A DNA stretch of 23,683 bases from a virus. Location: positions 1 through 23,683 of the IMG/VR virus record IMGVR_UViG_3300021375_000165; one strand, written 5' to 3'. The notes under the pieces are model-generated. The model was not told where the DNA came from. It was given only the letters and a program-made list of their open reading frames with translations, and did not search any database. The position numbers and the translations under genes were made by a program. Each line of letters opens with the position of its first letter. The stretch's first letter is position 1. Positions 3,216 through 23,175 of the stretch are shown one piece after another.

Positions 3216-4052
3216 ATGATACCATGGATAGGAACTCGAAGATCAAAATTGGCTCGAGCCTACACCGACAAAGCACAGCAGCTTGTCCCAGGTAATATAG
3301 TTCTTATTGATTCTCAAGCAGATTTAAATCCTACTACATCAATTGAAGAGATGGGTGGTAAAGGTGTCTTTTGTAAAGAGATAGAACAAGCTCTTATTGA
3401 TAGAGAAATAGATATTGCAGTTCATGCATTTAAAGATCTTACAAGAGACAACGATGAACTGCTCGAGATATCATGTGTATTAGAAAGAAACGATTTCAGA
3501 GATTGCTTAATTGGTAATAATGTTAATCCTAGAACAATAGGTACATCAAGTCCACGCAGAATAGCTCAGCTACAGGACCTCTATCCTCATTCTCAGATCA
3601 TTCCAATACGCGGCAATATAGATACTCGTATCGCGAAACAAGAGAATGGAGAGTACGACGCGATCGTATTAGCAAAAGCTGGTGTTGACGAATTGAGATA
3701 CGACCATAAAGTATCAAGAGTATTTGGAACCGCTGAAATGTTGCCTGCACCTGGCCAAGGTGTAATTGCTTTACAGACTCGCAAACCTACAAATCAAAAA
3801 GACACAGACATTACTGTTATGACTGCATCAAGAAATCATTGGGATACTTGGTATTGTGTTATGGCAGAAAAGTATATGTTGGCTGCAGTAGATGGAGATT
3901 GCCAAACTCCTATAGGATGTCTTTCATATATAGAAAGTGATAACATAAGAATGATAGCAAAGAATTTTGAAACAGATAAGATAGCAATTGAGAATGGCCC
4001 TATCAAAGAATACAAGGAACTAGGACATAAACTTGGTTCACAATTAATATGA
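3216..4052 (+). CDS. hemC: Hydroxymethylbilane synthase (porphobilinogen deaminase)
   Basis: The enzyme joins four porphobilinogens into hydroxymethylbilane, the linear precursor of haem, sirohaem, cobalamin and bilins, in the cytoplasm. Family motifs appear in order: IGTRRSKLARA (5-15), GGKGVFCKEIEQAL (47-60), DIAVHAFKDL with the catalytic Asp at 74, IGTSSPRRIAQL (108-119) with the paired Arg, RGNIDTRI (132-139), GEYDAIVLAKAGVDEL (145-160), and PAPGQGVIALQTR (177-189). The cofactor-attachment Cys is 229 in DGDCQTPIG. The length of 278 aa is shorter than the usual 300-315, and the loss is in the C-terminal domain after the cofactor site. The active-site set looks intact, so a working enzyme is likely. 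The ATG follows AAGGAA and the stop overlaps the next gene by 4 nt. It lies downstream of the ncRNA and hairpin 3129-3197. Confidence 0.95.
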   Translation: MIPWIGTRRSKLARAYTDKAQQLVPGNIVLIDSQADLNPTTSIEEMGGKGVFCKEIEQALIDREIDIAVHAFKDLTRDNDELLEISCVLERNDFRDCLIGNNVNPRTIGTSSPRRIAQLQDLYPHSQIIPIRGNIDTRIAKQENGEYDAIVLAKAGVDELRYDHKVSRVFGTAEMLPAPGQGVIALQTRKPTNQKDTDITVMTASRNHWDTWYCVMAEKYMLAAVDGDCQTPIGCLSYIESDNIRMIAKNFETDKIAIENGPIKEYKELGHKLGSQLI

Positions 4053-4267
4053 AACCACTAACGAAACAAATCCATAAAGAAACTTCATTTCAGATCGCAA
4101 CCGGATTAGCGATTAATTACCCTTTAAACCTCTTTTTGCTGTATATCTATATAGAACGGTTTGGTATTACTGATCCTATCACGTTAGGGACTCTGGTCAC
4201 TCTAGTAATGACTATTGTTGCTTATACACGTATCTTTTTGATCCGATCATACTTCTCTAAAAAATAA
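4049..4267 (+). CDS. Small two-span membrane protein, 72 aa
   Basis: It overlaps the hemC stop by ATGA. Two hydrophobic segments are visible, near residues 17-35 (ATGLAINYPLNLFLLYIYI) and 44-64 (PITLGTLVTLVMTIVAYTRIF), ending in a basic RSYFSKK tail. The layout (ET near the start, GxxxN in the first span, a Thr-rich second span, then R-Y-F) matches a family of tiny phage membrane proteins in marine T4-like phages whose role is unknown. It is translationally coupled to hemC, though a joint role is only inference. Confidence 0.78.
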   Translation: MKPLTKQIHKETSFQIATGLAINYPLNLFLLYIYIERFGITDPITLGTLVTLVMTIVAYTRIFLIRSYFSKK

Positions 4268-4290
4268 TTCATTTTATTCTCATAAAACTA

Positions 4291-4319
4291 TTGACATTCA
4301 TTGTGAGATAGATTATAAT
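4291..4319 (+). promoter_or_regulatory. Consensus sigma-70 early promoter (P4)
   Basis: TTGACA (4291-4296) and TATAAT (4314-4319) are both perfect and 17 nt apart, with AAAACTA directly upstream as at 2670. The leader TTGTATAAATTAAATTAA is shared with promoter 253-281. It drives the two small genes 4350-4472 and 4472-4777. Confidence 0.92.
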
Positions 4320-4349
4320 TGTTGTATAAATTAAATTAAAGGAGAAGAT

Positions 4350-4472
4350 ATGAGTTGTGAATGGAATGAAATTGTGTTGGAACAATTAAAAGAAGAAGGT
4401 GAATCACTGGGTCTCGAAGGAGAACAGTTGGAACACTTTGTTGATGAACAGTTTGAACAGAGGGCAGGTTAA
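4350..4472 (+). CDS. Very small acidic protein, 40 aa, unknown function
   Basis: A short frame directly behind promoter P4 with an excellent Shine-Dalgarno sequence (AAAGGAGAAG). The product begins MSCEWNEIVLEQLKEEGES and is strongly acidic and helical (GEQLEHFVDEQFEQRAG at the end). Its TAA overlaps the ATG of the next gene (TAATG), matching the coupling habit of this region. Its position, signals and composition make it likely to be translated. No family was recognised. Confidence 0.7.
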   Translation: MSCEWNEIVLEQLKEEGESLGLEGEQLEHFVDEQFEQRAG

Positions 4473-4777
4473 TGTTAGATTTAAGTTATATAGAAGTTAA
4501 TGCAGATACCTGTAAATATAAGAAAGACGGTTTAACATATACCGCTATCATCAAGGAAGTAACTCCTTATCATTTATCAGTAAAGCCAATTAGTGCTGTA
4601 AACTATCAAGATGGAACTTATCTAACTAACATGGATACTGATTTCATTGGTGAGAATTTTTCATCAGAATGTTATGATGTTATTGAATTAGAAATTTGGA
4701 TGGACGGAAGAGGATGTGATAACTCTGCTATCGGTGTTTCAGGTTGTTATGAACCTTGGAGAAACTGCGCTGCATAA
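4472..4777 (+). CDS. Phage protein, 101 aa, unknown function
   Basis: It is coupled to the 40-aa gene by TAATG and is the last early-strand gene. The sequence looks beta-rich: YIEVNADTCKYKKDGLTYTA, then IIKEVTPYHLSVKPISAVNY. A later acidic and Cys-containing part (CYDVIELEIWMDGRGCDNSA) and a C-terminal CYEPWRNCAA give five Cys in about 100 residues, which could bind metal. No family was recognised. Its stop codon abuts the convergent terminator of the capsid operon. Confidence 0.68.
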   Translation: MLDLSYIEVNADTCKYKKDGLTYTAIIKEVTPYHLSVKPISAVNYQDGTYLTNMDTDFIGENFSSECYDVIELEIWMDGRGCDNSAIGVSGCYEPWRNCAA

Positions 4778-4802
4778 AAAAGGCAACCCCGAAGGGTTGC
4801 CC
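4776..4802 (-). terminator. Rho-independent terminator of the capsid operon
   Basis: On the minus strand the sequence reads GGCAACCC, UUCG loop, GGGTTGCC, then TTTTTT (stem 4782-4789 with 4794-4801, U-tract 4781-4776). It lies about 50 nt beyond the gp23 stop and is oriented to end late transcripts. There is no U-run on the plus strand, so it works mainly in one direction. It also marks the convergence of early and late blocks. Confidence 0.92.
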
Positions 4803-4854
4803 AAATGTTCCGAAGAACTTTTAATTGTGGTTTAGTTGACCTAAACTCTTAGTA

Positions 4855-6165
4855 TTAGAATAAGTTAGAGATTCTTACTTTTCTGTAATACTTGTTGGTA
4901 TCCTGAGTCAATGCACCAGAACCTTGAGTGGCTCCTTGAGCAAAAGGATTAGCAACCATACCGTAACGAGTTTTGAAACCAATTTTTGGTTGGAAGCTAT
5001 TTTCACCAACCGCACGAACCATTTGTAATGGGACGTATGGGCAGTAGAATAAACCTGCATCAAATGCAGATGAACCCTTATAACCAACTACTAAGTAGTT
5101 GCCGCCTGCGAATGGATCAACATATACTCTGAAACGTCCGTTAAGAACACCAGCAAAAGTATTACCAGTATCATCAACTTCTAAGTTGTTAGAGTTAAGA
5201 GCAGGAGTGTAGTCAAGTACACCAGCCATTTGTAAAGCAGAAGCTACATCTGAAGAACAGATAACAACGTTACCTTTTCCACGTCTTGTATCTTTAGCGA
5301 TAGCATTAGCTTCTTGCTCGATTTGGAACATCAAGCCTTTGAACTTCTCTACTGACCAACGGCCGTTAGCGTCAACATCTAAGTCAAATACGCCAGCAGC
5401 TGCAGTTCCAGCAGCACCTACTACAGAAGTAGTATAAATGGTTCTAACAACTTCACGGTTGATCTCAGTTAAGATTTCAGTTTGAAGAATGTTAGCAAGT
5501 TCTGTCTCAGCGTCTAGGCCGTGAACAGCTTTAAGATCCTGAGCAAGCTCAGTTGTGTACTCAGCTTTTAGAGCACGAGTCTTAGCAGAAACAGTTACTT
5601 TCTCGATTGAGAAGGCCATTTCAGCATAGTTAGTACCGTTACCGTCGCCTAAGGCTTCAGCTTCAGTTGTTCCCATACCAGTACCAGTTGTGACCAACGC
5701 AGTATTAGCATTAGGTAAAGTGTTAGCATGAGTACCTGCTCCACCGAAGTCTGTATCAGCTTCGTTGAATAATGCCTCTGTGCCACCCTGTGAACCATAA
5801 GTTGAACGCATTGCGAAGATAAGTCCTGTAGGACCAGTCATCGGCTGAACACCACAGATGTCATATGCGATTAAGTTAGGTACAGCACGTCTTACCAATG
5901 AGATAAGAATTGGATCGTAACCTGCAGTAGGACCAGTTGCAGTTGAACCACCACTAAATCCACCAGTTCCGGCGTCGTTAGCAGGTGCTTCTGAAAGCAA
6001 GCTTGTCATGTTAGCAGATAAATCACCAGTTTCCATAAGTGCTTTTTCTGTGTTCTCAAGAATAGTGGCTGTTACCGCTTTTCTGTGAGAATCTTGAATT
6101 GGTGAAAAAGAGTCATGTGCCAGAATTGGCTCCCACTTTTCCACAAGTCTTTGATAGTTATCCAT
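4855..6165 (-). CDS. 23: Major capsid protein gp23
   Basis: T4-type major head protein (436 aa; T4 gp23 is 521). The N-terminus, MDNYQRLVEKWEPIL, is typical of marine gp23. A prohead delta piece ends at a likely protease site LSE|APAND (cut after Glu59), followed by a Gly-rich stretch. Next come PILISLVRRAVPNLIAYDICGVQPM (about residues 84-108) and GLIFAMRS, characteristic of gp23; the C-terminal region contains FKTRYGMVANPFAQG. It is the last gene of the late block, with the scaffold gene directly upstream. I see no TATAAATA octamer in its 51-nt upstream gap, so it probably relies on transcripts from 7269-7276 or further up. Confidence 0.98.
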   Translation of the reverse strand: MDNYQRLVEKWEPILAHDSFSPIQDSHRKAVTATILENTEKALMETGDLSANMTSLLSEAPANDAGTGGFSGGSTATGPTAGYDPILISLVRRAVPNLIAYDICGVQPMTGPTGLIFAMRSTYGSQGGTEALFNEADTDFGGAGTHANTLPNANTALVTTGTGMGTTEAEALGDGNGTNYAEMAFSIEKVTVSAKTRALKAEYTTELAQDLKAVHGLDAETELANILQTEILTEINREVVRTIYTTSVVGAAGTAAAGVFDLDVDANGRWSVEKFKGLMFQIEQEANAIAKDTRRGKGNVVICSSDVASALQMAGVLDYTPALNSNNLEVDDTGNTFAGVLNGRFRVYVDPFAGGNYLVVGYKGSSAFDAGLFYCPYVPLQMVRAVGENSFQPKIGFKTRYGMVANPFAQGATQGSGALTQDTNKYYRKVRISNLF

Positions 6166-15565: not shown

Positions 15566-15573
15566 TATTTATC
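15566..15573 (-). promoter_or_regulatory. Probable late promoter for gene 16 (one mismatch)
   Basis: GATAAATA on the minus strand, differing from TATAAATA at the first base. It overlaps the stop codon of the cytidylyltransferase gene and lies 6 nt upstream of the gp16 ATG, so any transcript from it would start at or inside the gp16 coding start. This is a weak candidate. Confidence 0.35.
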
Positions 15574-16015
15574 CTTCTTCAGTCATCTTCCAATCGCCAT
15601 CTTTATTTACCCAAGCGCAAGCTTTTCGTAAACCAGATGTACTGAATCTGTGATCACGTTTATTAAAATGTAAATCTATATCTCTCTTACGACAAATATC
15701 TTTTCCAGTAAATTCTTTATCACGATATTCTTCTCCTAAGATACGAACATTAATTGTATATAGTTCCAATATATCTTCAAGATCTCTTTCTGTTTGATAA
15801 GGAATGATTTCGTCAACATAACTTATTGCTTTAAGTTGAGTGTATCTCTCAACAATAGTTTGGATTGGTGGGTTCTTTTCTTTAGGACGATCAACGTGTG
15901 GATTCATTTGTAGTCCTACCATTAAATAATCACATTGTTCTTTTGCATCTCTTAGCATTTGAACATGTCCAGCATGAAGCAGGTCAAAGCTGCTACAAGT
16001 AAATCCAATCTTCAT
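15569..16015 (-). CDS. TagD-like cytidylyltransferase, 148 aa
   Basis: A nucleotidyltransferase-fold enzyme that would activate a phosphorylated polyol or sugar with CTP. It has the HxGH signature in FTCSSFDLLHAGHVQMLRDA (about 5-24), a Lys/Arg-rich variable loop (VDRPKEKNPP), and RFSTSGLR near residues 123-130, the equivalent of the ISTSxLR signature of glycerol-3-phosphate cytidylyltransferases. The length fits TagD (about 130-150). It is inserted between gp15 and gp16, neighbours in T4. The true substrate is unknown. It may take part in host-envelope or virion-glycan changes together with the nucleotidyltransferase-cupin gene at 22414-23175. Confidence 0.88.
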   Translation of the reverse strand: MKIGFTCSSFDLLHAGHVQMLRDAKEQCDYLMVGLQMNPHVDRPKEKNPPIQTIVERYTQLKAISYVDEIIPYQTERDLEDILELYTINVRILGEEYRDKEFTGKDICRKRDIDLHFNKRDHRFSTSGLRKACAWVNKDGDWKMTEEG

Positions 16016-17577: not shown

Positions 17578-18321
17578 TTATCCAATATAATTATATGAGA
17601 GTGGTTGTAGGTTATTAATAGCTTCTTCTTCCATTAACCTTCTTTCTTCTCGGGCATCTGCTAATATTTGTTCTCCGTTAAATGATACTCCTCCAACTAA
17701 TTGCATTCCGTTAAACTTAGTTAAGTTTGAGCCCCACTGTTCTTTAATTAATGTAGACGCATAATTTTGTAAAAAACGATCCGACCATACATCAGAGTAA
17801 GATGCAGGATCAATGACATCATAAGCTTCGATGATAATATAATCACCAACAACTAATAAGCCTTTATCTGTATCTATGTAAAGTTTGTTTACATGTTTGT
17901 TATATCTTAATCTTGGTTTACTATTAAGCATCTCAGATAAGAATTCCATATGAGACATTGCCATATAATAGTTTGTGATATTATAACCAGTAATATCTTC
18001 AAGGTTATTTAAAACAAATTGATACTGAACATTAAAGATACCACCACCTGCTGATATACTTGACTGCATATCAAAGATTCCTGAAATACCAAGTAACCCT
18101 GAAGGTAATGTTATATAACCATTAGTCTTATCGGTTTCAGTAATTTGGTGTTTTAAATAAACAAGTTGACTTCCGTTATAATGATAGTCTCTCCAAAAGT
18201 CAACTGCTTCATCAATACGATCGTCAATCTGTTCGTCAGAAACATTAATGTCAATCACAGGCGCGCCAAGCTTTCTCATAACCCAATCTTTAAATGTTTG
18301 TCTTGATGTTGGTTGTGCCAT
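17578..18321 (-). CDS. 13: Neck protein gp13
   Basis: A head-completion protein, 247 aa, shorter than T4 gp13 (309) as in other marine T4-like phages. The family signature near the N-terminus is TSRQTFKDWVMRKLGAPVID (5-24), followed by VSDEQIDDRIDEAVDFWRDY and LVYLKHQIT. Later come YYMAMSHMEFLSEMLNSKPR, RLRYNKHVNKLYIDTDKG, and a QNYASTLIKEQWGSNLTKF block. A near-consensus late promoter lies 29 nt upstream. Confidence 0.95.
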   Translation of the reverse strand: MAQPTSRQTFKDWVMRKLGAPVIDINVSDEQIDDRIDEAVDFWRDYHYNGSQLVYLKHQITETDKTNGYITLPSGLLGISGIFDMQSSISAGGGIFNVQYQFVLNNLEDITGYNITNYYMAMSHMEFLSEMLNSKPRLRYNKHVNKLYIDTDKGLLVVGDYIIIEAYDVIDPASYSDVWSDRFLQNYASTLIKEQWGSNLTKFNGMQLVGGVSFNGEQILADAREERRLMEEEAINNLQPLSYNYIG

Positions 18322-18357: not shown

Positions 18358-19314
18358 TTATAAATCTATTGTAGTTACTGTGGTGAATTTAAAGTCTTTT
18401 ACTTTTGTATCACTTACTCCTGACGCCCTTGCCCATAATTCCGCATTTCCAGCACATGTGTACTGAGCATTTCCGCTTGAACCTGTTGCTGTGTTTGGTA
18501 CATGCCTTATCGTCACAGTTAATCCAGTGGCCATCCCACTCGTTAACCATCCACTATCATAAGCTCCGGTTGTACTAAGATTGTGTTGGCCTCCGGCAGT
18601 ATTAGTTAAGCTTCTTAATGGAGAGATATTACCTGCCGCATCTGAAACTGCGGTAACGTTTACAACCATTTTTATACCTGTAATAGTTCCGCTTGTTGTA
18701 TTATTAGCGTATATTGTTTTTCCTGGATTGCTTCGAGTTAATCCATACCGCGTTGTGGAGGTGCCACCGCCACTAAATAAAGAACCTTTTGTATATGTGA
18801 ATCCATCACTGCCCACCACTGAAGTTTGGCCCATCCAAAACCATAATGTATAGACAGGAGTGCCGGCCCATAAAATATCGAGTCTTGTTTCTGTAAATCC
18901 TTCACCATCAGTATACTCTGTTTGTCTCCATTCGTAAGTACCTTGGCTGCCACTATTGGCTGTAACACCACCTGTTTGGTCGTTATATGTTGTTAGCGCG
19001 TTACTTGAAGAATTAGGCCCTCTTGCATATGCATAGTCAACGCGTGAACCGCTTCCAGTTCCAATTGCTTTACTCTCGTCAGTAGCTACTAATCTCAAAC
19101 CAGCTGTTCCGCTAACATAATAATTTAAACCAAATATTGTGTCAGTGTCAGCTGAGGTACCACCAACGACAAGTTGGTTCTGAAGAAAACCTGTCCCTTC
19201 ACTTATATCTGCTACTAGGTTTGAAATTACATTACTAGTAACACCTGCGGCCGCACCACCAGTTCCACCAGTTGCGGTTGTTCCTGCTACTGTATTAAAT
19301 GTATGACTTGTCAT
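18358..19314 (-). CDS. Fibre/appendage-like virion protein, 318 aa
   Basis: A Gly/Thr/Ser/Asn-rich, beta-type protein (MTSHTFNTVAGTTATGGTGG at the start) of the kind found in phage fibres. There is no signal peptide and no enzymatic motif. Its C-terminal part (AELWARASGVSDTKVKDFKF) matches the part of the upstream 474-aa protein that comes just before the Hint domain (ECWARKSGYEDTKVATWRF), so the two share a domain, and here the protein simply ends there. It lacks the MAIK(I/L)xGTxVI N-terminus of its three neighbours. An AAAGGAAA ribosome site precedes the ATG. Host receptor binding is plausible but unproven. Confidence 0.78.
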   Translation of the reverse strand: MTSHTFNTVAGTTATGGTGGAAAGVTSNVISNLVADISEGTGFLQNQLVVGGTSADTDTIFGLNYYVSGTAGLRLVATDESKAIGTGSGSRVDYAYARGPNSSSNALTTYNDQTGGVTANSGSQGTYEWRQTEYTDGEGFTETRLDILWAGTPVYTLWFWMGQTSVVGSDGFTYTKGSLFSGGGTSTTRYGLTRSNPGKTIYANNTTSGTITGIKMVVNVTAVSDAAGNISPLRSLTNTAGGQHNLSTTGAYDSGWLTSGMATGLTVTIRHVPNTATGSSGNAQYTCAGNAELWARASGVSDTKVKDFKFTTVTTIDL

Positions 19315-19326
19315 TTCTTATTTCCT

Positions 19327-20751
19327 TTACTTATTATGAACAATGTGTCCATCAACAATATATGTATTATCTCCACCAACACTAAGTGAATATACATCTC
19401 TAACTTTTTCTGGCCCTTTATTAATTGATGTTACTTCTTCGTCATAATATTCATTTGTTTCAGAATTATATTTCTTTAATATATCTCCTACCGCAAGTTG
19501 TGTTAAATTGATGTCTGAGTAAACTGGATTGTCAGTATGTTCTCCAAGACATTTCCATCCGTCTGTTGTTAAGAATGGGTGAGTACTTGAAACAAAAGCA
19601 TCGCTTCCGTTTATAGCATAAAAATTGTCTTGTAATGGGAAAGTTCTAAATTCTTCAATTTCTTTATGTAAACCATCATTTCCAATAACGTAATGAACTT
19701 CTCCATCTTCTTTACTTGACCATTGGTTATAAGCTGAATCTAAAGTCATAACACTAACTGTATTAGTATCAACATTCCACATATATAAGTTAGCTGACCC
19801 GAAGAAACATCCAGAACCATATGCTTGAGCATCAGCTCTAAATCTCCAAGTAGCTACTTTGGTATCTTCGTATCCTGACTTTCTGGCCCAACATTCAATA
19901 AGTCTTTCAGTACTGCTAGTAGATGTGCTCGACGGGCTGTATGAGTATGCACTAGTGGATACTGATAGTGTTGCGCCGGTTCCAGCTGTTGCTGACGAAA
20001 CATATCCTGTATCTGTTATAATAGTTCCACCGGTTGATTTAAGAACACATCGAGTTGTGTCTGGTGATATTGAGTTTTCTTCCCATATTTCAGTTTGTTG
20101 TCCATCTGTTCTTGATATAAACGTGCCTGTGCCTTGAGCATAATATCCGTTAGTAGCTCCACCTGAACCATTTGGAGTAAAGAATATTTCTGAACCACCT
20201 CCAGATCTGCTATAAAATTTTATATTACAAGTTGAAGTAGCGATGACGGGGTCTTGTACTCCGTAACTCATACTTACGTGATTGTCCGATATTCCTGTAA
20301 GTTGAGTTCCACCTTCTCTTGCAAGAATTGAAGTAGCTCCTGCCCAACCACTTAATGAACCACCACTAGCAGCAGTATATCCAAAAGCAACTGCTCTGAT
20401 TTCGTCTGCGGCTACTACAGTAAAACATAAGTGCCATCTTTGATAACCTGACCATGTTGGAGTCGTTCCACTTGCCCAACTAATGTTTGATGAAAACGTT
20501 GGTGTATGATTGCTCGAGCTGAGGTCTAATAACATCTGTGCAGAATTTCCAATTGCTGCGGATGTTTCAGTAAAAGTAGTATCAGCATTTAATACACAAT
20601 TCATCATTGGAGTTGAAAAATTTATATTATCGGTAGTTGAACTAATTCCATAAGCAGAATTATTAGACTTAATTCTTGCTACGTTTCCAGCAACGTTTTT
20701 TAATATCCTTGCGTTGTCAATTACGTCAGTTCCTGCTATTTTAATCGCCAT
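19327..20751 (-). CDS. Fibre-like protein with C-terminal self-cleaving Hint domain, 474 aa
   Basis: Residues 1-20 carry the shared anchor motif MAIKIAGTDVIDNARILKN. Residues about 88-130 contain the family repeat PTWSGYQRWHLCF. Residues 280-306 contain ECWARKSGYEDTKVATWRF, shared with the 318-aa neighbour. A GSG linker then leads into a Hint domain (315-474): block A CFFGSANLYMWN (Cys315), block B SSTHPFLTTDGWKCL (His391), block F RDVYSLSVGGDNTYIV (451-466), block G DGHIVHNK with His472-Asn473. The residue after Asn is Lys and is the last one, so protein splicing is not possible. Cleavage at Cys315 would release a 314-residue fibre. An AGGAG ribosome site lies at the end of the upstream small ORF. 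Confidence 0.88.
   Translation of the reverse strand: MAIKIAGTDVIDNARILKNVAGNVARIKSNNSAYGISSTTDNINFSTPMMNCVLNADTTFTETSAAIGNSAQMLLDLSSSNHTPTFSSNISWASGTTPTWSGYQRWHLCFTVVAADEIRAVAFGYTAASGGSLSGWAGATSILAREGGTQLTGISDNHVSMSYGVQDPVIATSTCNIKFYSRSGGGSEIFFTPNGSGGATNGYYAQGTGTFISRTDGQQTEIWEENSISPDTTRCVLKSTGGTIITDTGYVSSATAGTGATLSVSTSAYSYSPSSTSTSSTERLIECWARKSGYEDTKVATWRFRADAQAYGSGCFFGSANLYMWNVDTNTVSVMTLDSAYNQWSSKEDGEVHYVIGNDGLHKEIEEFRTFPLQDNFYAINGSDAFVSSTHPFLTTDGWKCLGEHTDNPVYSDINLTQLAVGDILKKYNSETNEYYDEEVTSINKGPEKVRDVYSLSVGGDNTYIVDGHIVHNK
19330..19809 (-). other. Hint (hedgehog/intein, BIL-like) domain coding region
   Basis: Codons 315-474 of the 474-aa fibre-like gene. The N-terminal Cys can make the N-S acyl shift, and the conserved His of block B and the terminal His-Asn pair are present. 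There is no homing endonuclease (the domain is only 160 aa) and no C-extein beyond one Lys. This matches the bacterial intein-like (BIL) arrangement rather than a splicing intein. Confidence 0.85.
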
Positions 20752-20912: not shown

Positions 20913-21344
20913 TTATGCTCCCCAACTTGTCGCTGTGACTGTGTGAATAGTTGCGTCCCAAGATGTTATAACAATGGTCCAATATCTTGCGGTAGACCAA
21001 TCAGGTTCTGAACCATTTTCAAAAACCCAAGTTATGCCACTTCCACCAAATGCTAAATCGTATAACTGGTCAGTGCCGTCAACAAAATATGTAAATTGGT
21101 CACCGCCTGAAGTACCAGATATTCCTTGTATGACTACATTACCTCCGCTTAGCGTTAAAAACTCTTGATGTTCATCTGCCATAGATGGAGTTAGGTTGCC
21201 TGTGCCAAGTGTTTGTGTTGAGTATTTTGGCTGAACATTATCATATTCACCTTCTACTCCAGTAAGATTTTTAAATCGCATACCTGCTAAAGGTGCGCTT
21301 GTAGATCTATCTATTACTGATGTTCCTTCTATTTTAATTGCCAT
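20913..21344 (-). CDS. Short fibre-like virion protein, 143 aa
   Basis: It starts with the shared MAIKIEGTSVIDRSTSAPLA motif. It then has a beta-rich body (TLSGGNVVIQGISGTSGGDQ, QLYDLAFGGSGITWVFENGS) and ends with the family repeat EPDWSTARYWTIVITSWD followed by TVTATSWGA. Relative to its two larger paralogues it stops right after this repeat, so it is the minimal form of the family. It is spaced 2 nt from the upstream gene stop and is probably coupled. It is likely a structural appendage subunit; function not known. Confidence 0.78.
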   Translation of the reverse strand: MAIKIEGTSVIDRSTSAPLAGMRFKNLTGVEGEYDNVQPKYSTQTLGTGNLTPSMADEHQEFLTLSGGNVVIQGISGTSGGDQFTYFVDGTDQLYDLAFGGSGITWVFENGSEPDWSTARYWTIVITSWDATIHTVTATSWGA

Positions 21345-21346
21345 AA

Positions 21347-22366
21347 TTAGAATCCTGGTCCTGGGTTCATGCCTGGTACTGGCCCGTAATTACAAAATAC
21401 ACTTACTCCACTTACATCGGCTGTTGAATAAAAAGTTCCTTCATTACATACAATTTTAATTCTAAAATCTGGATCCGAGGAGTTAAAGGTTGCATAAGTA
21501 TGAGAATCTTGGCCTGAACTTGAATCTACTTCTGCTGACCAACCAAAGAATACTGATGACGAAGAGCAATCATAATAAGTTCCTGTGCTGAGTCCATCAT
21601 CGGTTGGTAGAGGCCCGTAACTTTGCCCTGAATTGCTTCCACAATTATCCCCTGAACAAGCTTGAGTGCCTGGATTATACTGAACTTCAACTGATGTTAT
21701 TCCAGTAAGGCCCGTATAGTTTGCGTATGTAGTAACTTGAGTAGAACCTTCTCTTGAATTTCCATGTCCGTGAGTTACATTAACTCTATTATTTGCCGAG
21801 CTATGTTGGAAAGACATCCAAGCTGCGGCCCACGGTGTACCTGACCCATAAGAATTATCTTGGTTTTGCCACTGATTACCAAGGCCATCTAAGAAATTTG
21901 AAAATGAAGACGATGGAGTAGAAACTGCGTCAAAAGGTACAGCAGTACATCTTGCGACACCGTCAGGCCATATTACACCATTGATTGTCCAATATCTGTC
22001 ATCTGACCAACTTGGCGTTGTTGTAAATGCAAATTGAGAAACAAAAGTTGGAGTATACCCAGCGGCAGCACGATCTAAGTATATAGTAAAATGACTGCCG
22101 AAGTGGCCATCAGAAAAAGCCCCAGCGGGACTAAAAGAAAACTGCAAGTTTTGAGTCATGGTGAAAGTAAATACAGAATAGCCTTGATTAGAAGCGGTTC
22201 CGTCATCGCTATCACCTATTGCTACCGCACCACTCGCGGGAATTGTTTGTACATCTGGATGGAAGTTTGTAAAGTTAACATCATCAAAGTATGTTACATT
22301 ACCATCAGATGTACCAATGACTTTAGAATCAGTAATTACTGGAGTGCCAGCTAGTTTGATCGCCAT
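21347..22366 (-). CDS. Fibre-like virion protein, 339 aa
   Basis: First gene of the MAIK tandem. The N-terminus MAIKLAGTPVITDSKVIGTS is the shared motif. The family repeat TPSWSDDRYWTINGVIWPDG lies near residues 116-135. The C-terminal part is Ser/Gly/Tyr-rich with a Cys pair (ACSGDNCGSNSGQSYG) and ends NYGPVPGMNPGPGF, a variable tip typical of adhesive fibre ends. A very strong Shine-Dalgarno sequence (GGAGGA) and an exact late promoter precede it, so abundant late expression is expected. Receptor binding is inferred only from the composition. Confidence 0.78.
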   Translation of the reverse strand: MAIKLAGTPVITDSKVIGTSDGNVTYFDDVNFTNFHPDVQTIPASGAVAIGDSDDGTASNQGYSVFTFTMTQNLQFSFSPAGAFSDGHFGSHFTIYLDRAAAGYTPTFVSQFAFTTTPSWSDDRYWTINGVIWPDGVARCTAVPFDAVSTPSSSFSNFLDGLGNQWQNQDNSYGSGTPWAAAWMSFQHSSANNRVNVTHGHGNSREGSTQVTTYANYTGLTGITSVEVQYNPGTQACSGDNCGSNSGQSYGPLPTDDGLSTGTYYDCSSSSVFFGWSAEVDSSSGQDSHTYATFNSSDPDFRIKIVCNEGTFYSTADVSGVSVFCNYGPVPGMNPGPGF

Positions 22367-22413: not shown

Positions 22414-23175
22414 TTAATCGCGGCGCTCAATATCAGATTCTTCAAGTTTATCTCCAAGCCATACTTCAATTACTTTTGCTGATTCTTTACCAACGTTAGT
22501 TGCTCTATGCCATGTTTCTTTTGGAATGTCAACACTCATTCCCGCATGATAAATTTTGGTATGCTTTGATCCTGGCATTCCATCGTCTCTATCAAGTTCC
22601 ATTAAAACAGAACCACTTACAATATGCCAATGTTCAGATCTATGAAAATGTTTTTGGTCACTTAACGATTGGCCAACATCAAAACTTAATTCTTTAACTC
22701 TCCATTGACCGTTAGTATCTAATACTTTATATGTTCCCCATTTACGCTGTGTTGTAGGTTGAGACCATTCTTTTAATATCCAACTTGATGAATTCTTTTT
22801 ATCTTCTCCACCAATTCCAAACTCAAACACAATACCTTCTACTGCCATCTCAGGGATGTTGTCTGATGTTCTATCACCACCATTTACAAATATAATAGTA
22901 TCTGAAGGATATAAATGTTTAACCCGTTCTAAGCAATCTATCGCGCTTCCGTCCGAATCGTCAAAAGCTATTACTGCATCAACACAGGCAAGTTCTTTAA
23001 CAATTGCTGCTCTTTCTTCGAATGGCATAAAGTATCTGCCTTTCTTTCTTATAAGCCATTCATCTGAATTTACACCTACAATTAATTGAGTACCGCTTAA
23101 AGATGCATCTTTTAAATATTCTATATGTCCTGTATGAATTGGGTCAAAGCCACCCGTGGCAACTACTGTAATCAT
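22414..23175 (-). CDS. Nucleotidyltransferase-cupin fusion protein, 253 aa
   Basis: Residues 1-140 form a cytidylyltransferase-type domain with the HxGH signature in TGGFDPIHTGHIEYLKDA (7-24), VGVNSDEWLIRKKGR, and IIFVNGGDRTSDNIPE (94-109). Residues 145-245 form a cupin of the ManC/mannose-6-phosphate isomerase type II kind: RKWGTYKVLD, then SLSDQKHFHRSEHWHIVSGS (170-189) with the metal-binding His set, then DIPKETWHRATN. It may activate and edit a sugar or polyol phosphate for glycan synthesis, but the real substrate is unknown. It is adjacent to the FkbM-type gene upstream with no gap. Confidence 0.88.
   Translation of the reverse strand: MITVVATGGFDPIHTGHIEYLKDASLSGTQLIVGVNSDEWLIRKKGRYFMPFEERAAIVKELACVDAVIAFDDSDGSAIDCLERVKHLYPSDTIIFVNGGDRTSDNIPEMAVEGIVFEFGIGGEDKKNSSSWILKEWSQPTTQRKWGTYKVLDTNGQWRVKELSFDVGQSLSDQKHFHRSEHWHIVSGSVLMELDRDDGMPGSKHTKIYHAGMSVDIPKETWHRATNVGKESAKVIEVWLGDKLEESDIERRD

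Follow-up and report, generated by a model that had tools for sequence, protein, structure and literature searches.

Type A BIL domains end in His-Asn, as inteins do, and carry at the following position (+1) a residue that is not a nucleophile (PMC4031507). In the ciliate Tetrahymena thermophila, the BIL2 domain of BUBL1 is reported to form an isopeptide bond to the epsilon-amine of a lysine, by which its N-terminal flank is conjugated to other proteins (PMC8616854). In phages, inteins are well known from enzymes (PMC3556154, PMC5259590, PMC5526547). The open-access literature, to which our search was confined, yielded only such inteins in enzymes and no Hint or BIL domain in a phage structural protein. 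Nor did it yield a C-terminal BIL-type cassette on phage tail or appendage proteins, or an invariant C-extein of one Lys residue.

Here we describe such an arrangement in a virus record of 23,683 bases from IMG/VR, a piece of an uncultured, apparently marine T4-like phage. The whole of this stretch is the DNA that was analysed, and we call it the window. A preliminary description had reported a 474-residue frame with Cys315, a block B THPF containing His391, and a His472-Asn473-Lys474-stop end. All of these lie at the positions it gave, and we add that the gene runs on the minus strand (Table 1).

Table 1. Features of the Hint gene and its neighbours in the window (positions in bases; residue numbers refer to the 474-residue precursor).
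Feature	Position	Strand	Basis or remark
gp13-like (T4) head-tail adaptor	17578..18321	-	phrog_211, 1.7e-40
318-aa Hint-less neighbour	18358..19314	-	12 nt downstream of Hint gene; ends at point homologous to residue 314
474-aa precursor gene: appendage-like N-part, C-terminal Hint, one Lys	19327..20751	-	single open frame from ATG
His472-Asn473 (block G) and Lys474 (one-residue C-extein), then stop	19330..19338	-	HNK invariant in alignments
Hint domain, residues 315-473 (Cys315 to Asn473)	19333..19809	-	Pfam, profile and structure matches
His391, block B His (SSTHPF)	19579..19581	-	invariant; equals intein block B His in DnaB alignment
Cys315, Hint position 1, predicted thioester nucleophile; scissile bond Gly314-Cys315	19807..19809	-	invariant in alignments
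Residues 1-314, predicted mature product (N-extein)	19810..20751	-	two beta domains, first 30 residues poorly modelled (AlphaFold2)
C-terminal domain of N-extein, WARKSGYEDTKV block, common to Hint-less paralogues	19816..20085	-	profile search; BLASTP with neighbour, E 2e-4
143-aa gene, N-terminus MAIKIxGTxVI	20913..21344	-	directly upstream of Hint gene
339-aa appendage-like gene, N-terminus MAIKxAGTxVI	21347..22366	-	open frame and N-terminal motif

The Hint gene belongs to a T4-like structural operon, in which neck, tail and head genes adjoin it in T4 order. The structural genes on the minus strand code for capsid, scaffold, prohead protease, portal, tube, sheath, terminase, gp15, gp14 and a gp13-like head-tail adaptor; Ad2/gp13-like, gp14, gp15 and TerS were named by profile matches, the portal-to-capsid genes by order and sequence, without a profile. 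The major capsid protein is at most 67% identical to T4-type phage capsids (for example, that of Sinorhizobium phage phiM12). Just upstream of the adaptor gene lies an appendage-like array of four genes (318, 474, 143 and 339 aa), three of which have the N-terminus MAIKxxGTxVI in common. In T4, this slot just upstream of the neck genes holds the short tail fibre and fibritin genes.

Gene order is largely kept in related T4-like loci: a short MxIK gene, the Hint gene, a partner gene 12 to 16 nt downstream, and gp13. The short MxIK-type gene precedes the Hint gene in most related loci where that side is present. The slot of the partner gene is kept as well, with products of 252 to 1476 aa. In one close relative the Hint-less neighbour is split by an in-frame stop into 201 and 116 aa (L006:3699-4652), through mutation or an assembly error, and the Hint gene is intact. 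One locus contains two Hint-tailed appendage genes with a short MALKI gene between them (L018:2570-3664 and 4077-5477); L052 has the same arrangement.

The window holds further genes of interest. On the plus strand, this T4-like phage record encodes hemC (hydroxymethylbilane synthase; 3216-4052, TIGR00212 at 7.7e-70). Matches to hemC in the phage collection are few and mostly resemble bacterial DNA deposited as phage. A minus-strand gene adjoining the appendage array (22414-23175) fuses a cytidylyltransferase-like domain to a cupin of the mannose-6-phosphate isomerase type, and a second CTP-transferase-like gene (15569-16015, minus) lies between gp15 and terminase. Both are kept in related loci, a hint at sugar or surface modification.

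Residues 25-130 show weak fold matches to phage spike, baseplate, tailspike and gp9 domains, and residues 139-311 to Ig/FN3-like folds (Z ≤7 for both). No fold match to residues 1-314 is confident: the best Foldseek E-value is 7.5e-3, and the VIA scores (Z ≤7.0) are too low to exclude a chance arrangement. The 474-aa protein has no significant match in NCBIfam or PHROGs. Hence the label fibre-like is based on gene position and on the weak matches to phage appendage domains, and by gene position residues 1-314 are probably an appendage protein of the short-fibre/neck-whisker group. We found neither a Pfam ubiquitin match in the gene nor a ubiquitin-like fold among the matches listed for residues 1-314.

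Comparison with Pfam profiles, a check proposed at the outset, gave a mixed result. The Hint alone matches Intein_splicing (PF14890) at 4.9e-6, but its 26.9 bits fall below the curated cut-off of 35.8, which is a scoring convention and not a biochemical feature. Family members on other hosts (for example, L073, L078 and L085) pass the Pfam cut-off for Hom_end_hint. With a profile made from 15 Hints of the family, solved DnaB mini-inteins are recovered at about 1e-6 and 2lwy, a solved BIL domain, at 0.016.

The structure that AlphaFold2 predicts for residues 311-474, with pLDDT mostly around 90 over the Hint, has a Hint fold. Over these residues, the only ones that the comparison covers, the model matches solved inteins, BILs and Hedgehog with Z-scores of 12.8 to 17.6. 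Among these solved structures, it comes closest to BIL2 of Tetrahymena BUBL1 (6y75; Z 17.6, rmsd 2.1 over 139 residues); mini-inteins (Z 13-17), the Clostridium BIL 2lwy (Z 15.5) and Hedgehog 1at0 (Z 14.7) match as well. Many of the alignments begin at residue 315, that is, at position 1, and nearly all stop at 473 or 474. In the alignment with BIL2, Cys315 corresponds to residue 1 and Asn473 to the terminal Asn. One point against the likeness is that the window Hint shows no evident counterpart of the block F His that many inteins have. Profiles, predicted structure and conservation agree that the C-terminal domain is a true Hint of BIL type with intact active-site residues and with Cys315 as its first residue, as had been proposed.

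Conservation was assessed at increasing distance from the window. A first scan of IMG/VR returned nine relatives with 73-81% identity in the best segment, all ending in ...VHNK. The wider family of 15 Hints, with identities to the window down to 32%, has an invariant Cys1, an invariant block B His with PFLTTDGWK, and an invariant terminal VHNK. Among diverse homologues Cys315, His391, His472 and Asn473 do not vary, and neither does HNK; position 1 is Cys in all 35 full-length domain clusters. The residue before Cys1 is variable (Gly, Ala, Glu, Thr, Ser, Asn, Asp or Gln), and therefore only the domain itself marks the N-terminal site. In ten pairwise codon comparisons, dN/dS of the Hint ranges from 0.14 to 0.35, and its dN is below that of the N-extein in every pair. 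Hence the Hint is a working domain under purifying selection and not a relic.

To see where the protein would end without its Hint, we turn to proteins that lack the domain. The 318-aa neighbour does share the WARxSGxxDTKV block that had been noticed in it (BLASTP E 2e-4 over residues 247-304), and a chance similarity is ruled out by this value together with the profile search. The neighbour also ends at the homologous point, and this matching of ends extends to 27 proteins, 15 with a Hint and 12 without. For this count, a profile of the C-terminal domain before Cys315 was searched against every open frame of the loci gathered by then. Cys1 follows this domain within a few residues in Hint proteins; Hint-less paralogues stop 0 to 8 residues after it. 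Measured from the shared motif, Cys1 comes at 16-18 residues in the 15 Hint proteins and the stop at 15-20 in the 12 paralogues; several of the 27 sequences are close relatives, and independent cases are fewer. The agreement holds for the distant members L019, L022, L024 and L026, too. In the AlphaFold2 model of residues 1-314 the last strand (297-313) stops at the junction.

Because Hint-less paralogues end where Cys1 would start, the Hint caps an already complete protein; the comparison marks the end of a complete protein and says nothing about whether cleavage occurs. Like the fold, the active-site residues, the register and the selection, the completeness before Cys315 comes from sequence and structure comparison.

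What would such a domain do? Every sequence feature of the type A BIL description is present in the window Hint: Cys1 and the block B His, the C-terminal His-Asn, and a +1 residue other than Cys, Ser or Thr (Lys474). Since all of these features are found, the likeliest outcome is the release of residues 1-314. We therefore consider it likely, from sequence, model and analogy, that the phage-borne Hint works like a type A BIL domain and cleaves itself off at Gly314-Cys315.

All chemical steps and the mature product are modelled on BIL and intein biochemistry. In the first step, Cys315 would attack the Gly314-Cys315 peptide bond with the help of His391 and form a thioester. In the second step, Asn473, helped by His472, would cyclise, which would cut the chain before Lys474. 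Finally, the thioester would be resolved, by default by water, leaving residues 1-314 with a free C-terminus and a released Hint. Alternatively, an amine may resolve the thioester, either that of the freed Lys474 or that of a lysine in a partner subunit.

This last alternative leads to the residue after His-Asn. The domain had been described as having no C-extein. Its His-Asn end is indeed followed by a single Lys, as stated, but this Lys474 is no remnant: it is itself a C-extein of one residue, and an invariant one throughout the family. When the C-terminus was kept out of the search patterns, all 24 C-terminal Hints that were found end in His-Asn-Lys-stop; random composition would give Lys at +1 in about 4%. 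The hosts of C-terminal Hints with +1 Lys include unrelated proteins (lambda gpI, baseplate-wedge-like and DUF4815 proteins). Grouping all loci at 90% identity gives 39 clusters, 37 of them with a located His-Asn, and 22 clusters end exactly one residue past it. The +1 residue of the 37, internal Hints included, is Lys in 35, Arg in one and Tyr in one (the Tyr cluster resembles an ordinary intein); this larger set stems partly from a search pattern containing VHNK, so that its Lys count is biased and the 24 of 24 is the unbiased count. Hints with a long C-terminal flank have this Lys too (HNK-GGGG..., HNK-GCFIK..., HNK-RPP), and hence it is not a stop-codon effect. Judged by this constancy, the residue right after the scissile Asn probably takes part in the reaction or belongs to its product.

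It is conceivable, though in our view unlikely, that the product is a covalent joint instead of a trimmed end. A lysine amine would then receive the C-terminus of residues 1-314 from the Hint. The acceptor would be either the Hint's own +1 Lys, through an alpha or an epsilon linkage, or a lysine in an adjacent appendage subunit. The prevalence of Lys at +1 would fit, and so would the isopeptide bond to a lysine epsilon-amine that is reported for BIL2, the top structural match (PMC8616854). Type A BILs can join their flanks via a free amine (PMC4031507), and in related T4-like loci a partner gene closely adjoins the Hint gene. However, the role of the Lys may lie in Asn cyclisation or in the way the C-terminus is bound, and not in accepting the thioester. 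Reported BIL products are mostly cleavage products, no acceptor site was found, and the partner gene varies in size and N-terminus across loci. Thought through to the end, this doubtful scenario makes the invariant Lys the acceptor and the Hint an ATP-free ligase, which would lock the C-terminus of a fibre or tail-tip protein during assembly to its own terminal Lys (a branched end) or to a partner lysine. If so, other tail proteins, with their tandem and internal HNK-Hints, would carry out this chemistry at several sites.

The release of the N-terminal part, which we favour, can also be judged on other phage proteins that carry the cassette. C-terminal HNK-Hints occur on proteins with an MxIKxxG N-terminus (in T4-like loci), on lambda gpI-like proteins (phrog_32, 1.3e-35), and on Baseplate_wedge, Phage-tail_3 and DUF4815 proteins. 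Gene order in the six gpI loci resembles the lambda tail tip, and in those loci that are long enough to show it, the Hint protein immediately precedes a gpJ-like gene; apart from gpI, the genes were identified by order and size. These lambda-like tail-tip operons, each with a gpI homologue that has a C-terminal HNK-Hint, are L065, L066, L032, L034, L067 and L068. In lambda, residues 135-223 of gpI form a trimeric plug in the lumen of the tail tip, held by beta-augmentation with gpJ (PMC10721106). A Hint of 138 aa per gpI copy would be hard to fit in such a plug, which argues for its removal.

For the same reason, it is very improbable that the Hint stays uncut on the appendage and serves as a tip domain with a structural or receptor-binding role. 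Extra C-terminal domains are frequent in phage fibres, but a gpI-like tail-tip plug would leave little room for this one, and the Hint-less paralogues show a complete fold before Cys315. Furthermore, Cys1, the block B His, His-Asn and the +1 Lys are strictly kept across domains that are only 32-43% identical, which therefore points to catalysis and not to a binding surface. That the domain is an ordinary intein which happens to lie close to the end of its host gene, or what is left of a decaying one, is hardly credible in spite of the mini-intein fold and the profile matches to DnaB inteins: with a +1 residue other than Cys, Ser or Thr and a one-residue C-extein there is nothing to splice by the class 1 route, HNK-stop is found in 22 clusters on several unrelated proteins and not at one conserved insertion point, and dN/dS well below 1 speaks against decay.

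Hints of this family are also found in other arrangements. A 2400-aa frame with a DUF4815-like N-terminus (L037:297-7496) has tandem Hints, four full ones and the start of a fifth, in one phage structural protein. L038:258-7610 has two Hints, one of them with Arg at +1. Some of the tandem Hints in L037 stand head to tail with a lone Lys between the Asn and the next Cys (VHNK|CFIAGT). Internal HNK-Hints occur in L077, L083-L086, L090, L092-L106 and L108, behind several unrelated N-terminal parts. Next comes either a Gly-rich stretch or another Hint-like start (HNK-GCFIKGT...), and then 50-155 further residues; these C-terminal flanks are diverse, as at a module-swapping site. One DUF4815 phage protein (L085:431-6079) has a strong Pfam match to E1_FCCH (ubiquitin-activating enzyme; 5.8e-16) upstream of its internal HNK-Hint. 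This is curious beside the BUBL-like structure match, and possibly reflects only a shared beta fold.

The family is rare outside uncultured phages. With the whole protein, its Hint and other HNK-Hints as tblastn queries against 50,697 phage records, no C-terminal HNK-Hint or detectable close relative was found in isolated phages; the matches are mainly intein-type sequences in terminases and helicases, or weak partial ones. GTDB genomes give only four matches. One, at 85% identity, is an apparent stray phage contig in a Pirellulales MAG (L111), and another is the same contig region as an intein locus (L041/L110). The remaining two are proteins of Flavobacteriales MAGs (L112:4243-6312 and L113:423-1868), the sole clearly non-phage-looking carriers that we saw. 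A search of 198 Bacteroidota genomes adds one weak match. Given so few matches, these data place the Hint family almost entirely in phages.

For their maturation, phage structural proteins normally depend on prohead proteases or intramolecular chaperone domains. In the present case, a single-turnover domain of intein type appears to mature unrelated tail proteins repeatedly, and phages with HNK-Hints may need no protease to trim their tail parts or to join them chemically. If this is confirmed, then BIL domains, whose natural roles are poorly known, gain a concrete task in virion appendages, where they would create mature ends or covalent joints. The annotated C-termini of many uncultured phage tail proteins would then be off by 140-170 residues. 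A compact domain with a C-extein of one Lys would also be useful in the preparation of protein thioesters or lysine conjugates.

Compared to known Hint systems, the window Hint shares fold, blocks A, B and G, and register with class 1 mini-inteins (DnaB, RecA, NrdJ-1). In contrast to them, it lacks Cys, Ser or Thr at +1, has a one-residue C-extein, and sits at the C-terminus of structural hosts and not of replication enzymes. Lys at +1, the one-residue C-extein and a domain that caps a complete protein speak against a class 1 intein. The Hog domain of Hedgehog (1at0, Z 14.7) is likewise a C-terminal Hint that releases the N-terminal part, with an external nucleophile to resolve its thioester. 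Hog lacks the His-Asn end, however, and possesses a sterol-recognition region. A Hedgehog autoprocessing domain is ruled out, since the window protein ends one residue past Asn473 and has no sterol-recognition region.

BIL2 of the BUBL1 polyubiquitin locus (6y75/6tmm), the best structural match, hands its N-terminal flank to a lysine amine. However, it comes from a ciliate, has ubiquitin-like flanks and is activated by zinc, whereas no ubiquitin-like flank was recognised in the window gene. Type B BILs, which are without the His-Asn end of block G, are ruled out because HN is present. Entries of BFVD for uncultured Caudovirales phages named 'Hint domain containing protein' (best viral match 2e-9) resemble the window in having predicted Hint folds in phage proteins; they are annotations only, with no function given in the open-access papers searched. 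The type A BIL (Clostridium thermocellum 2lwy) has the same Hint fold, Cys at position 1, C-terminal His-Asn and a non-nucleophilic +1 residue. The phage Hints differ from it in sitting on tail and appendage proteins, in a C-extein of exactly one residue, and in the invariant Lys at +1, whereas described BILs are not limited to Lys (for example, Tyr in Magnetospirillum). Hint annotations in uncultured phage proteins are known already, and the proposed chemistry is type A BIL-like and not a new class.
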